5,176 bases of DNA from Deltaproteobacteria bacterium. Lineage in GTDB: Bacteria > JAUYMQ01. A model generated the notes under the pieces. It was not told the origin of the DNA and made no database searches. It worked only from the letters and a program-made list of their open reading frames with translations. The translations under genes and the position numbers were made by a program. Below, in pieces: positions 258 through 4,986 of the stretch (the first letter of the stretch is position 1; each line of letters opens with the position of its first letter). Location: assembly GCA_030698575.1 (NCBI GenBank), contig JAUYMQ010000634.1, positions 1 to 5,176 of the forward strand, read 5' to 3'.

Positions 258-286
258 GTGTCCTTCCGGCGAGCGTGCGTGACTGA
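258..286 (+). repeat. Left terminal inverted repeat of the IS66-type element
   Basis: The repeat begins GTGTCCTTCCGG and ends TGACTGA. It matches the reverse complement of 4056-4084 at 27 of 29 positions, with mismatches at repeat positions 13 and 22. The base just outside differs between the two ends (A257 versus the complement of G4085), which supports 258 as the element boundary. It lies 44 bp upstream of tnpA, as expected for an IS66 left end. Confidence 0.88.
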
Positions 287-307
287 GCCCCCGGCGGCCC
301 GTAGGCT
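279..307 (+). promoter_or_regulatory. Weak candidate sigma70-type promoter for the tnp operon
   Basis: GTGACT at 279-284 (4 of 6 matches to TTGACA) and TAGGCT at 302-307 (3 of 6 matches to TATAAT) are separated by 17 bp, upstream of tnpA. The -35-like box overlaps the inner end of the left terminal repeat, so transposase binding there could repress transcription. The match is poor and the host's promoter consensus is unknown. Confidence 0.2.
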
Positions 308-309
308 AG

Positions 310-331
310 TGAGCGTAGGAGGTTACGCTCA
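310..331 (+). promoter_or_regulatory. Hairpin presenting the tnpA Shine-Dalgarno, abutting the start codon
   Basis: TGAGCGTA (310-317) and TACGCTCA (324-331) are perfect 8-bp arms around the loop GGAGGT (318-323). The ribosome-binding core AGGAGG spans 317-322, so it is mostly in the loop, and the A of the tnpA ATG (331) closes the stem. It sits 8 bases from the start codon, an ideal spacing. In RNA the hairpin could modulate tnpA translation. In DNA the same palindrome could be an operator. The palindrome is seen directly and its role is inferred. Confidence 0.5.
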
Positions 332-714
332 TGGGAGAGTCCGAGGATCTGAGGGCGCTGCAGCGGCGCGTGGAGGGCTGGCGTAGGAATGGGGGCGGTC
401 GGGGGTCGCGGATCCCCGAGGAGCTGTGGCGCGACGCGGTTGCGGTGGCGCGAACGGCCGGGTTGTACGCGACGGCACGGGCTCTTCGCTTCAACTACGA
501 GCGGCTGAAGAAGCTGGCGGGCACGATGGAGCCGAGCCCAGGGAAGCGGGCGATGGAGTTCGTCACGCTGCAGATGCCACAGGTGCCGGCCGGGCCCAAG
601 GTGGTGATCGACCTGGCGGGGCGTGACGGCGAGCAGATGCGCATCGACGTGTCGGGCGGGAGCGCGGTGGACGTTGCGGCGCTGGCGAGCGCGTTCTGGG
701 GGAGGAGGTCGTGA
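331..714 (+). CDS. tnpA: IS66-family accessory protein TnpA (helix-turn-helix)
   Basis: This is a 127-residue protein in the first position of an IS66 operon, where the family has a small HTH accessory protein required with TnpB for transposition. Residues 28-62 (from RIPEELW to NYERLKKL) resemble the IS66 TnpA N-terminal HTH: a helix, AVAVARTAG, then a second helix entering YATARALRFNYERLKKL. The C-terminal part (about 76-125) carries the usual FVTLQMP, VVIDLAGRDGEQMRIDV and DVAALASAFWG segments. ATG 331 is chosen because AGGAGG at 317-322 lies 8 bases upstream. The stop codon overlaps the GTG start of tnpB by four bases (GTGA 711-714), so translation is probably coupled. Nothing looks truncated. 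The specific DNA target is unknown, though the hairpin just upstream is a plausible site. Confidence 0.85.
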   Translation: MGESEDLRALQRRVEGWRRNGGGRGSRIPEELWRDAVAVARTAGLYATARALRFNYERLKKLAGTMEPSPGKRAMEFVTLQMPQVPAGPKVVIDLAGRDGEQMRIDVSGGSAVDVAALASAFWGRRS

Positions 715-1079
715 TCCAGGTGACCCCCCAGATGCGAATCCTCGTGGCCGTGGAGCCGCAGGACTTCCGGCGCGGGATCGACGGTCTGAGCCGGATCTGT
801 CGAGAGGTGCTCGCAAGCGACCCGCTCTCCGGCACGATCTTCGTGTTCCGGAGCCGGCGCGGCACGGCGATCCGGCTTCTCTGCTACGACGGCCAGGGGA
901 TGTGGCTGGCCCACAAGCGCCTGTCCGAGGGCAAATTCAGGTACTGGCCAGGACGGAAGGGGGCGGCGGGACACGAACTCCTGGCCCACCAGCTCCAGGT
1001 ACTGCTGGCGGCGGGCGACCCAGACGCGACGAGAGCGGCGCCGCTGTGGAGGCCCATCGCCCAGGCGGCCACGACGTAG
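711..1079 (+). CDS. tnpB: IS66-family accessory protein TnpB (Orf2)
   Basis: This 122-residue protein is a clear IS66 Orf2/TnpB. It shows the family pattern in order: VEPQDFRRGIDGL (14-26), DPLSGTIFVFRSRRG (37-51), IRLLCYDGQGMWL (54-66) and KRLSEGKFRYWP (69-80), followed by a variable Ala-rich tail. It is unrelated to the RNA-guided nuclease also called TnpB in IS200/IS605 elements. TnpB is required for IS66 transposition, but its biochemical role is not settled. The start is taken as GTG 711, which overlaps the tnpA stop and is served by GGAGG at 701-705. An ATG at 732 would remove seven residues and lacks this arrangement. The stop is TAG 1077-1079, with 39 bp before the DUF4338 gene. Length is normal for the family. 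Confidence 0.9.
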   Translation: MIQVTPQMRILVAVEPQDFRRGIDGLSRICREVLASDPLSGTIFVFRSRRGTAIRLLCYDGQGMWLAHKRLSEGKFRYWPGRKGAAGHELLAHQLQVLLAAGDPDATRAAPLWRPIAQAATT

Positions 1080-1118
1080 GGACTTGCGTTCTCTTCCGGA
1101 GTTTGGTACCAATGGGGC

Positions 1119-1994
1119 GTGGACATCGTGCTCCGGTACCGGGGACGCGCCATCAACGCCGCCGACGTGGACGCGATTCGGAGGCTCATCGCGGAGCATC
1201 CGAAGGCGAAGCGCCGGGCCCTGTCGATCCTGCTGTGCGAGGCGTGGTCGTGGCGTCAGGCCAACGGGGCGCTGCGCGACGCAGTGTGCCGGGGCCTCCT
1301 GCTGGCGCTGCACCGTGCCGGTCACATCACGTTGCCGCCCCCGCAGTGCCGAACGGTCCCGAGGTGGAGGCCACCGCAACGAGTCCACGTTCGGCCGGTC
1401 CCGCGCGAAGGAAACCTCGGCGATCTGGGGCCGATCGAGATACGGCAGGTGCGTCGCACCCCCGAGGAGGCGCTGGTCGATTCGCTCATCGACGAGCACC
1501 ACTACCTCGGCTACGCGAGGCCTGTCGGCGAGCACCTCAAGTATCTCGTGACGGCGAGCGGCTCGCCGCTGGCCTGCTTCTGCTGGACATCGGCGCCAAG
1601 GCATCTCGGACCGAGGGACCGGCACATCGGGTGGTCCGCGGAGGCGAGGAAGGCCAACGTCCGTTACGTGGCCTACCAGAGCCGGTTCTTGATCCTGCCG
1701 TGGATCCATGTGCCGCTCTTGGCGTCGCACTTGCTCGGGCGCATGGCGCGGCAGCTCTCCGGCGACTGGGAGCAGCAGTACGCGCACCGGATCTACTTCA
1801 CCGAGACCTTCGTCGATCCGGCACGCTTCCGCGGAACATGCTACAAGGCCGCCAACTGGACGTACCTCGGGATGACGACGGGCCGCGGCAAGGACGCGCC
1901 GACGAAGCGGCCCAACCGGCCGCCGAAGGACGTCTATGGCTACCCGCTGGTGAAGGACTTTCGCCAGAGGCTGGGGCAGATGCCACCGCCATGA
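1119..1994 (+). CDS. DUF4338 / DruA-family protein carried in the IS66 operon
   Basis: This 291-residue protein has the full set of DUF4338 landmarks: HHYLGY (127-132), VGEHLKYLV (136-144), RDRHIGW (166-172), RFLILPW (189-195), LASHLLGRMARQLSGDW (201-217), ETFVDP (229-234), GTCYKAANW (239-247) and GMTTGRGK (251-258). The N-terminal 75 residues (VLRYRGR, then a QANGALRDAVCR segment) form a small helical, possibly DNA-binding module, joined by an Arg/Pro-rich linker (76-98). DUF4338 is the domain of DruA from the Druantia anti-phage system, but no DruE-like helicase or other Druantia gene is here, so the symbol is not applied. The gene sits between tnpB and tnpC and overlaps the tnpC start (ATGA 1991-1994), which suggests a role in transposition or its control. 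The start is uncertain: GTG 1119 or GTG 1128, neither with a strong Shine-Dalgarno. The molecular activity is unknown. Confidence 0.87.
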   Translation: MDIVLRYRGRAINAADVDAIRRLIAEHPKAKRRALSILLCEAWSWRQANGALRDAVCRGLLLALHRAGHITLPPPQCRTVPRWRPPQRVHVRPVPREGNLGDLGPIEIRQVRRTPEEALVDSLIDEHHYLGYARPVGEHLKYLVTASGSPLACFCWTSAPRHLGPRDRHIGWSAEARKANVRYVAYQSRFLILPWIHVPLLASHLLGRMARQLSGDWEQQYAHRIYFTETFVDPARFRGTCYKAANWTYLGMTTGRGKDAPTKRPNRPPKDVYGYPLVKDFRQRLGQMPPP

Positions 1995-3796
1995 GCAAGA
2001 CGCCGGAGGTGGTCGAGGTGGACATGGCTCAGCTCGAGGGGCTCGTGGATCGCACGAAGGGGATCGTCGTCCCCGAGGACCACGAGCTGATCGAGGGCCT
2101 GGTGGGAACGGTCGTGGCGCTGACGAAGCTCGTGCGGGAGGGGCGAGCGACGCTCGCCCGCATCCGCCACCTGCTCGGTCTCCGGAGCAGCGAGAAGACG
2201 GACGATGTCCTGCCCCGAGGCGGGAAAGGCACGGCAGGGGACTCGGATGCGGGTACCAAGCCAGAGGCGCCCGAGGGGGCGGCGGTGACGGGCATCGATG
2301 AGAACGGGGCGACCTCCCCGACGCCCGATGCCGACAAGCCCCAAGCCCCGGGGCACGGCTGTCTGCCCCTCTCGGCGTACCTCGATCTCTGCCCGATCCG
2401 GGTGACGCACGACAAGCTCCACCCCGGAGACCGATGCCCGCTGTGCGGTCGGGGCAACCTCTTCGAGCTGCGGGAGCCGGCGAAGATCTTGCGAATCCAG
2501 GGTCAGCCCCCCCTGGTGGGGGAGTGCTGGCTCTCTCAGCGACTTCGCTGCAACAGTTGCGGCGCGGTCTTCACGGCGGCCGCGCCCCCCGAGGCGCAGG
2601 GTCGGAAGTACAGCGCCTCGGCCGTGGCCATCATCGCGCTGCTGCGCTACGGCGGGGGGATGCCCCTCTACCGCCTCGAGGGGCTGCAGGGACATATGGG
2701 CACCCCGGTCCCGGACGCCACGATGTGGGATGTCCTGGTCGTGCGAGCGGACGAGATCAAGCCCGTCCTTCAGGAACTGCGCCGCCTGGGGGCCCAGGGG
2801 GTCCTCATGCACAACGACGACACTTACATGCGCATCCTCGAGTTCATGGGGAAGCGCCGTGCCCGGCTGATCGAGAGCGGAGCGCTTCCCTCTCCCGAAC
2901 GCACCGGGCTGTTCACGACGGGCATCGTGGCGATCTTCGAGAGTCACCCGATCGCGCTCTACATCACCGGCCGTCAGCACGCGGGCGAGAACCTCGCGGA
3001 TCTCCTGACGGAGCGGGAGCCCGGGCGCCGACCGCCGATCCAAATGTGCGATGGGCTCGACCGCAACCACCCGAAGGGGCACGAAGTGGTCCCCGCCAAC
3101 TGCCTGGTCCACGGCCGCCGGCACGTCGTAGACCAGGTCGAGAGCTTCCCCGAGGAGTGCCGCTACCTGCTCGAGAGGATGAGGGACGTCTTCCGTGTCG
3201 ACGACCTCTGCCGGAAGGCGGGCCTCTCGGACGACGAGCGCCTCCATCGCCATCAGCGGGAGAGCGGGCCCATCATGGAGGAGATCCAGCGATGGATGGA
3301 GGCCCAGATGGAGGAGAAGCGCGTCGAGCCCAACTCGGGGCTGGGCGCCGCGATCAGGTACCTGCTCAAGCGCTGGGACAAGCTCACCCTCTTCCTGCGC
3401 GTTCCCGGAGCCCCCCTGGAAAACAACCTCGTGGAGAGGGCGCTCAAGCGAGCGATCCGCCACCGAAAGAACAGTCTCTTCTACTTCAACGCGCGTGGTG
3501 CAGAGGTGGGCGACCTGTACATGACGCTCATCCACACGACGGAGCTCAATGGCGGCAACGCCTTCCACTACCTGACCGAGCTGATGCGGCACGCGAAGGC
3601 CGCGTCCGAGAGGCCCGGCGACTGGCTGCCCTGGACCTATCTCGAGACTCTGGCCCGCTTGCAGGCCGCAAATGCAGCCCCCGCGCAGAGCACGTCGCCT
3701 ACGCCTCCACCCCCACACCCCCGGCCCGTGAAGCCTCGTAGGCGACCCCTCGCAGGTAAGCCGGCCGCCGAGCCACATCAGCCGCACGCTCCGTAG
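1991..3796 (+). CDS. tnpC: IS66-family DDE transposase TnpC
   Basis: This 601-residue protein is the catalytic transposase, which cuts and joins the element ends. It has an N-terminal helical region (about 30-66), an acidic, low-complexity linker (70-122) and a zinc ribbon with CPLC (149-152) and CNSC (187-190). The RNase H-like catalytic core follows. Likely catalytic residues are D276 in HNDDT (274-278), D354 in QMCD (351-354) and E482 in LENNLVERALKRAIRHRKNSL (core 476-496), the last being the standard IS66 signature. The first motif reads NDD where many IS66 members have ADE. C-terminal conserved blocks run through GDLYMTLIHTTELNG (507-521) and end with a Pro/Arg-rich tail (562-601). ATG 1991 overlaps the preceding TGA and has no good Shine-Dalgarno of its own, so coupled translation is likely. 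The frame is intact and the length is normal for the larger IS66 subgroup. Confidence 0.93.
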   Translation: MSKTPEVVEVDMAQLEGLVDRTKGIVVPEDHELIEGLVGTVVALTKLVREGRATLARIRHLLGLRSSEKTDDVLPRGGKGTAGDSDAGTKPEAPEGAAVTGIDENGATSPTPDADKPQAPGHGCLPLSAYLDLCPIRVTHDKLHPGDRCPLCGRGNLFELREPAKILRIQGQPPLVGECWLSQRLRCNSCGAVFTAAAPPEAQGRKYSASAVAIIALLRYGGGMPLYRLEGLQGHMGTPVPDATMWDVLVVRADEIKPVLQELRRLGAQGVLMHNDDTYMRILEFMGKRRARLIESGALPSPERTGLFTTGIVAIFESHPIALYITGRQHAGENLADLLTEREPGRRPPIQMCDGLDRNHPKGHEVVPANCLVHGRRHVVDQVESFPEECRYLLERMRDVFRVDDLCRKAGLSDDERLHRHQRESGPIMEEIQRWMEAQMEEKRVEPNSGLGAAIRYLLKRWDKLTLFLRVPGAPLENNLVERALKRAIRHRKNSLFYFNARGAEVGDLYMTLIHTTELNGGNAFHYLTELMRHAKAASERPGDWLPWTYLETLARLQAANAAPAQSTSPTPPPPHPRPVKPRRRPLAGKPAAEPHQPHAP

Positions 3797-4055
3797 ACGG
3801 TCTCGGCGCGGGGCCCGTGGCTCCCGCTCATCGCCACGCTCGGCTGTCGCTACGTCTTCTCGTTCTTGACCCGCCGGCCGTCCTTCACGAACGCCAGCCC
3901 GGCCATGTCCTCCCCCGCTCGGGACCCAGCTCCGATTCGCGCCCCCCACGCCCACCTCCGGGCTACGACCTCCCGGGCCACCAGGACATCCACATCGCCA
4001 CGCCGGTCGGCTGCGGACGGTCGCGCTGCCAGTCCCACTGCGCGTTGGCCGACCG
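3797..4055. other. Right-hand non-coding part of the IS66 element
   Basis: About 260 bp lie between the tnpC stop and the right terminal repeat. The + strand is C-rich and no reading frame has both a credible start with a ribosome site and a recognisable product. A 62-codon minus-strand frame (3850-4038) ends in MAGLAFVKDGRRVKNEKT with G/C at every third position. Its upstream part loses that bias and it has no known relatives that I can name, so it is not called. ACGCTC, a piece of the terminal repeat, recurs at 3836-3841. Confidence 0.5.
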
Positions 4056-4084
4056 TCAGTCAAGCACGCTCCCCGGAAGGACAC
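4056..4084 (-). repeat. Right terminal inverted repeat of the IS66-type element
   Basis: Read on the minus strand it begins GTGTCCTTCCGG and ends TGACTGA, pairing with 258-286 with two mismatches. The primase gene to the right is therefore outside the element. The adjoining octamer GTTGGTTC shares only GTTG with the left-flank octamer GTTGAAAA. Confidence 0.88.
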
Positions 4085-4230: not shown

Positions 4231-4986
4231 ATGCAAGCCAAGGATCAGACCAAATTGATGATTCGCTGGTGGACGTGGGCCGGCATCGACTGCGCGGACC
4301 TCGCGGTAAGGCGTCCGGATGGATCGATGCTCTGGCACACGAACCTCCCGATCAAGGAGCTTCCCCTGGGTTGGGCCGGGGCGGAGAACGCTCGCGGCGC
4401 GGATGTCTACGTGCGGCCAGCTCGTGGCTACGTCTGGCCGATCATGTTCCTCGACGATGTCCCGATCGAGGTGATGCACCGCGTCATTCGGAAGTACGCG
4501 GCGCTCGCGGTCCGCACGTCGCCGCAGGGTGGATGCCACATCTGGATGCTCTGCCGCCGCCGCCTGGACGAGCAGGAGCGGGCCGAGGCGCAGAGGCGGA
4601 TTGCTCCGCTCGCGGGAGCCGATCCTGGGTCGGTCTCCGGCGAACACCTCGGACGGCTCGCCGGGTTCAAGAACTGGAAGCGCGACGGCGTCTGGGTGAA
4701 CGTTGCCCGGAGCTCGTCAGGACAAGCCTGGGATCCCGACGCCATCGTTCCCGTTCGCACGCCCATACGTCCGATGATCCCGCTCCCACAGCCCAGTAGG
4801 GGCTTGGATCGGAGCGAGTCCGGCCGTGACTGGGGCTGGGTCTGCGGACGCCTGGAGGCTGGCTGGGAACCACGCGAGATCTACTGGGATCTGGTCGCTC
4901 GCTCACGGCCGCGTCGGGGCGCCGACGCTGAGCGCTACGCCGGCCACACGCTCTCCAACGCCCTCCAGAACCGGGCTAACGGCTGA
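4231..4986 (+). CDS. RepB/AEP-like DNA primase-domain protein
   Basis: The product has 251 residues. Its middle resembles archaeo-eukaryotic-type primases of the RepB class: DVYVRPARGYVWPIMFLDD (58-76), with the FLDD acidic pair as candidate metal ligands; RTSPQGGCHIWM (95-106), the S-x-G-x-x-H type motif II; and GEHLGRLAGFKNWKR (137-151), like the motif III region of this group. The C-terminal part (about 199-245: RDWGWVCGRLEAGW, REIYWDLV, AERYAGHTLSNAL) looks like the small helical domain that follows such primases. Residues 1-15 may be dispensable, since ATG 4258 is in frame. Plasmid and phage relatives make primers at replication origins. No helicase or initiator gene accompanies this one here. 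It lies outside the IS66 repeats, and its codon use is less strictly G/C-ending than tnpC. The same frame continues open upstream to 3817, but that stretch lacks coding character. Confidence 0.6.
   Translation: MQAKDQTKLMIRWWTWAGIDCADLAVRRPDGSMLWHTNLPIKELPLGWAGAENARGADVYVRPARGYVWPIMFLDDVPIEVMHRVIRKYAALAVRTSPQGGCHIWMLCRRRLDEQERAEAQRRIAPLAGADPGSVSGEHLGRLAGFKNWKRDGVWVNVARSSSGQAWDPDAIVPVRTPIRPMIPLPQPSRGLDRSESGRDWGWVCGRLEAGWEPREIYWDLVARSRPRRGADAERYAGHTLSNALQNRANG

Follow-up and report, generated by a model that had tools for sequence, protein, structure and literature searches.

Why does a gene of the DUF4338 family, known as DruA of the Druantia anti-phage system, sit among the transposition genes of an insertion sequence? 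The locus that raises this question lies in a 5,176-nt stretch of a deltaproteobacterial genome (contig JAUYMQ010000634.1), and we refer to this whole stretch as the window. We analyzed the gene, its protein product, and its relatives in other genomes.

An intact druA-like gene within a complete IS66-family element

We identified a complete IS66-family element at positions 258 to 4084 of the window, with an intact DUF4338/DruA gene between tnpB and tnpC. The element is bounded by a 29-nt left terminal inverted repeat (GTGTCCTTCCGGCGAGCGTGCGTGACTGA; 258 to 286, plus strand) and a right repeat (4056 to 4084, minus strand) that matches the left end at 27 of 29 positions; the number of such pairs expected by chance is 0. 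Four genes lie between the repeats, all on the plus strand. The ORF in the tnpA position (331 to 714; 127 amino acids) had no Pfam match above cut-off and was assigned by its position and by tblastn matches at the equivalent position in three related loci, L002, L003, and L027. It is followed by tnpB, encoding the IS66 accessory protein (711 to 1079; PF05717, E = 1.1e-25; NF033819), by the druA-like gene (1119 to 1994), and by tnpC, encoding the 601-residue IS66 DDE transposase (1991 to 3796; PF03050, E = 9.5e-44; NF033517, E = 3.2e-56). PF05717, PF03050, and NF033517 all scored above their cut-offs, placing the element in the IS66 family. The druA-like gene begins with a GTG codon, consistent with the aligned start in its relatives, and its 291-residue product matches PF14236 (E = 1.1e-28) with 100.7 bits against a gathering cut-off of 27. 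The druA stop and the tnpC start overlap by four bases (ATGA, 1991 to 1994), an arrangement of translational coupling. Thus, the original prediction that the gene is an integral part of an IS66 operon and coupled to tnpC was borne out.

No perfect 8-bp target-site duplication was found; the flanks gttgaaaa and gttggttc agree at 4 of 8 positions, and this single copy is possibly old or recombined. In the source genome (4.1 Mb, 653 contigs), the window DruA is the sole DruA and the window transposase the sole IS66 transposase. Directly outside the right inverted repeat lies a RepB_primase-like ORF (4231 to 4986; PF16793, E = 2.3e-05), from which we conclude that the element is probably inserted in plasmid- or island-type DNA.

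The window gene is not a Druantia gene

No other Druantia gene had been noticed at this locus, and our profile and PADLOC searches of the window agree: no PADLOC model matches the druA-like protein, even at an E value of 0.1, no other window protein matches, and the Druantia partners druB to druE and the DEAD/DEAH helicase are absent from the window. The source genome has one MZB-domain gene, which is unlinked to druA. Druantia DruAs (L132 to L135), by comparison, were recognized by PADLOC at 1e-87 to 1e-122 and span the whole 297-position PF14236 profile, whereas transposon-type copies reach only to about position 226. The window gene is not Druantia. Druantia-type DruAs in operons with a DEAD/DEAH helicase were found in Pseudomonas putida pKF715A (L205) and Nitrosococcus watsonii (L206). 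In pKF715A, a complete IS66 element (L205, 11288 to 13519) lies immediately upstream of the true Druantia operon.

A predicted GNAT fold with the core residues of phage Mu Mom

We modeled the druA-like protein with AlphaFold2 on a 19-sequence alignment (pLDDT 90.4). In this model, residues ∼105 to 285 (1431 to 1973) adopt a GNAT acyltransferase fold, and the best solved structure in a Foldseek search was phage Mu Mom (8BV8; E = 5e-7). VIA-align superposed the model on 8BV8 with a Z score of 14.8 and an rmsd of 3.4 over 164 residues at 15% identity, the next GNATs following at 13.2 and below. Profile comparison gave the same relationship, as hhalign aligned 11 phage Mom proteins with 19 DruAs at a probability of 96.8 (E = 2.3e-10), and the PHROG family 'Mom-like DNA modification protein' matched relatives at 4e-6 and 4e-5. 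The Pfam Mom family was hit below threshold in several relatives, and one fusion to an ISAs1 transposase (L128) passed the Pfam cut-offs for both DruA and Mom (Mom E = 1.4e-7, 31.8 bits). Because the window copy itself scores 15.6 bits against PF25680, below the cut-off of 27.1 that L128 exceeds, we call the protein Mom-like rather than Mom. Mom was reached solely by fold and profile-profile methods: a direct profile search of PDB sequences with DruA returned nothing significant, nor did a single Mom sequence against the DruA profile, the 11-sequence Mom profile being required. The N-terminal domain (residues 1 to 95; 1119 to 1403; pLDDT 86) is predicted to be helical and possibly helix-turn-helix; Foldseek found no match to it at 0.001, and its structural matches are weak and of the helix-turn-helix type (best Z score, 5.0). 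The GNAT nature of DUF4338 has already been published for DndF fusions (PMC10853773), and Mom is known to act on adenine N6 (PMC7824862). Phold has also been reported to find Synechococcus phage proteins that resemble DruA in structure, with 13 to 17% identity (PMC12774648); these may be Mom-like too.

The alignment pairs Mom H48, Y49, D139, G146, Y149, N153, and G158 with DruA H128, Y129, D233, G239, Y242, N246, and G251, where DruA position 233 is D or E. Mom S114 aligns with DruA S203 (codon at 1725 to 1727), which does not vary among the 19 sequences or in any of the transposon-type DruAs compared; S114 is the site mutated in 8BV8, named there 'inactive mutant S124A', the two numberings being ten apart. 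The window copy has the full Mom invariant core (H128, Y129, S203, D233, G239, Y242, N246, and G251). A structure prediction had been proposed as a check on the suggestion that DUF4338 is an enzyme, and the model, with its GNAT/Mom fold and the Mom core residues mapped onto DruA, makes an enzymatic role plausible. In eight Druantia DruAs, S203 is replaced by G and G239 by S in every sequence and N246 by K or R in seven; wherever the alignment resolves position 233, the residue is non-acidic, and the six sequences aligned at H128-Y129 have W-S instead. As far as aligned residues tell, transposon-type DruAs keep the Mom core and Druantia DruAs have lost most of it.

A GNAT fold alone does not establish DNA as the substrate, and protein acylation is possible. 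DruA might regulate transposition or copy number by acylating the transposase or a host factor; most GNATs act on proteins or small molecules, and operon coupling and transposase fusion would suit an in-cis regulator. We nevertheless consider this improbable, given that both the nearest fold and the sequence signature point to the DNA enzyme Mom rather than to the protein acetyltransferases among the structures searched, and that one domain serves unrelated transposases, for which a shared protein site is hard to explain.

DruA recurs with many kinds of DDE transposase

Relatives of the window gene lie between tnpB and tnpC in L003, L027, L108, and L118, and some others lie upstream of more distant IS66-type transposases. 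At L013, L014, L017, L028, and L140, the order is reversed, with DruA downstream of an IS66-type transposase. Pfam searches also revealed fusions of DruA to transposases of the Tn5 type (L018 and L024), DDE_5/IS701 (L023 and L109), ISAs1 (L128 and L034), and DUF4277/IS1634 (L119), and DruA adjoins ISAs1 transposases at L104, L150, L159, and L161 and a weakly matched DUF772 type at L152. At least six kinds of transposase are therefore fused or next to DruA: IS66, ISAs1, Tn5/IS4, IS701, IS1634, and the DUF772 type. The IS family names used here for DDE_5, DUF4277, and DDE_Tnp_1_assoc are those that we take to belong to these Pfam families. One DruA fusion (H56) carries the NCBI label 'ISAs1 family transposase'. 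The original prediction tied DUF4338 to IS66; that link stands, but the association extends beyond IS66 and takes in many families of DDE transposase, frequently in the form of fusions.

Several individual loci stood out. At L106 (1831 to 3878), two DruA genes lie back to back on opposite strands with one IS66 transposase alongside. An ORF neighboring DruA at L114 (4567 to 6033) has a weak match to UPF0236 (E = 0.0017, below cut-off), presumably the ISLre2 transposases, and is a possible further partner type. The genome of Candidatus Synoicihabitans palmerolidicus (G010; L029 to L035) holds 54 DruA matches, many of them decaying, and the DruA loci examined there are accompanied by ISAs1 transposases.

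In a census of samples from three phyla (345, 398, and 299 genomes), 61 of 92 transposon-type DruAs had a DDE transposase, either fused (28) or adjacent within 1.5 kb (33); the adjacent class is biased by transposase queries that came from DruA-neighbor loci, and the fusions are free of this bias. The remaining 31 had no recognized transposase in the flank, some of them being at contig ends or truncated. None of the 18 Druantia-type DruAs had one (Fisher p = 6e-8 versus transposon-type), with the qualification that, given the DruA-derived queries, other transposases near these genes may escape the adjacency counts. Looking from the side of the transposase, we found DruA within a short flank at 5 of 30 IS66 loci sampled in one phylum, or about one in six, so DruA is optional for IS66.

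These data also bear on whether the IS66 element captured a stranded Druantia fragment. The Pfam family in common would fit such a capture, but the PADLOC DruA models miss the window protein, the DruAs of Druantia, which lack most of the Mom core, group apart in a long-branched clade of their own (see below), and transposon-type copies accompany transposases across many phyla, while no Druantia-type census copy does. We regard a stranded fragment as largely refuted and its probability as very small.

The DruA tree

In the DruA tree, the Tn5 fusions form one clade and the IS701 fusions another; a single clade of all IS66-borne DruAs was rejected (p = 1e-35). Scatter of the IS66-borne copies together with decayed motifs had been named beforehand as the pattern that would speak against a transposition function; the copies are indeed scattered, but their motifs are intact. 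Druantia DruAs form one long-branched clade that is drawn inside the transposon radiation. Placement outside is not rejected (AU p = 0.35), so the tree does not decide on the earlier suggestion that IS66 elements were a possible source of the defense gene, and with such long branches we do not conclude that Druantia DruA came from transposons.

Four solitary DruA genes (L136, L137, L139, and L141), with no recognized transposase and no clear flanking repeats, also group together with support; they are possibly domesticated copies. We considered that solitary genes might be small non-autonomous elements and rejected this, as their flanking inverted repeats were not clearly above shuffled controls.

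Coupling, mobility, and exchange

The exact 4-base stop/start overlap occurs at 10 of 20 druA-tnpC loci and at 5 of 7 tnpC-druA loci, and coupling thus arose in both gene orders. This bears on a further alternative, that DruA is a passenger with anti-restriction activity, modifying DNA widely and protecting the replicon outside the transposition reaction. Mom protecting Mu is a precedent, solitary DruA copies occur in the census, and most IS66 elements lack DruA; free cargo, on the other hand, would not usually show 4-nt overlaps in both orders or be joined time and again to the transposase in a single polypeptide, and we judge this reading rather unlikely, although less so than protein acylation.

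A Desulfobulbaceae genome contains three units of ∼2.48 kb that are 99.9% identical, druA included, with the druA stop ∼30 bases from the right end. In the near-identical units L010, L011, and L012, the tnpC frame is broken identically and druA is intact; these units may have been moved by a transposase supplied in trans.

By tblastn, identity of the window proteins to those of L002, L003, and L027 was 66, 53, and 51% for DruA, higher than the 52, 42, and 42% for TnpC, and in these nearest relatives the conservation of DruA is close to that of TnpB. We count the selection on DruA that this comparison suggests in favor of an accessory gene. DruA and TnpC distances are correlated (Spearman 0.50; 1 of 5,000 permutations as high), and some pairs are discordant, such as L004 and L100 (DruA 53%, TnpC ∼20%), which points to modular exchange. 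The right end of L097 has the window's terminal repeat (GTGTCCTTCCGG) and a related TnpC with a DruA of another clade, which indicates module exchange at this locus.

Proposed role

Taken together, our analysis favors, with some confidence, the reading that the window druA is an accessory IS66 gene for a Mom-type acyltransferase, most likely one that modifies DNA. Its product would be made together with the transposase through the 4-nt overlap, as a two-part protein with a small helical, perhaps DNA-binding, N-terminal domain and a Mom-type GNAT domain. Such an enzyme, dependent on an acyl-CoA-type donor, would reach the transposon complex through co-translation or, elsewhere, through fusion, and would put an acyl-type group onto DNA, at adenine N6 by analogy with Mom. 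The target could be the element's own DNA or the DNA within the complex assembled by its transposase. The excised or copied element might thereby be shielded from host restriction or nucleases, or the donor marked versus the target, and transposition itself may be affected. Target choice, end processing, or regulation had been suggested earlier for DUF4338; the modeled fold points instead to acyl transfer. More broadly, and more tentatively, a Mom-like DNA-hypermodifying enzyme may have been taken up on repeated occasions by bacterial DDE transposons, as a fusion with the transposase or by co-translation with it, and may mark transposon DNA chemically during movement, Druantia DruA being a catalytically changed relative.

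If correct, this proposal supplies a chemical hypothesis for DUF4338, with S203, Y242, D233, and H128 as defined targets for mutation, and makes DNA modification a possible step of IS transposition; Mom-like marking by DDE transposons would then be an epigenetic step in transposition. Given the transposase association and the kept Mom active-site residues, many DruAs are probably DNA-modifying partners of transposons, not antiviral parts. 'DruA' annotations in many genomes would accordingly denote transposon parts rather than defense, and defense-system surveys relying on PF14236 or on the name DruA would need correcting. IS66, GNAT, Mom, and DruA are each known; their combination, and the split between DruAs with and without the Mom core, are apparently new. 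Our literature search, which left out preprints and most subscription papers and whose silence is therefore weak evidence, found no paper joining DUF4338 or DruA with IS66 or Druantia with GNAT, and no statement of a DruA-Mom or DruA-transposon link.

Comparison with known systems

The window element shares its terminal repeats, tnpB, tnpC, gene order, and overlap with IS66 insertion sequences of the tnpA-tnpB-tnpC type and differs by the extra gene between tnpB and tnpC, which is missing in most IS66 elements sampled. With Druantia type I DruA (PF14236; PADLOC DruA1), the window copy has in common the Pfam family, the RD..IGW segment, and one conserved Tyr and Gly. Druantia DruAs have lost H-Y, S203, G239, the D/E at 233, and mostly N246, and they have a longer C-terminal part (profile positions 226 to 297) and neighboring druB to druE helicase genes, both of which the window copy lacks. 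Some DndF proteins carry an N-terminal DUF4338 GNAT domain of the same Pfam family, but these fusions are associated with defense, occur without a transposase, and were interpreted as effectors (PMC10853773). Phage Mu Mom (PF25680; 8BV8) shares with DruA the GNAT fold and the core of H-Y, S, D, G, Y, N, and G, and the mobile element that encodes it likewise uses a DDE transposase. Mom belongs to the late phage genes and is controlled by Com, unlike DruA, which is ∼15% identical to it, has an extra N-terminal domain of ∼95 amino acids, is located in or on IS transposase genes, and has a predicted activity.
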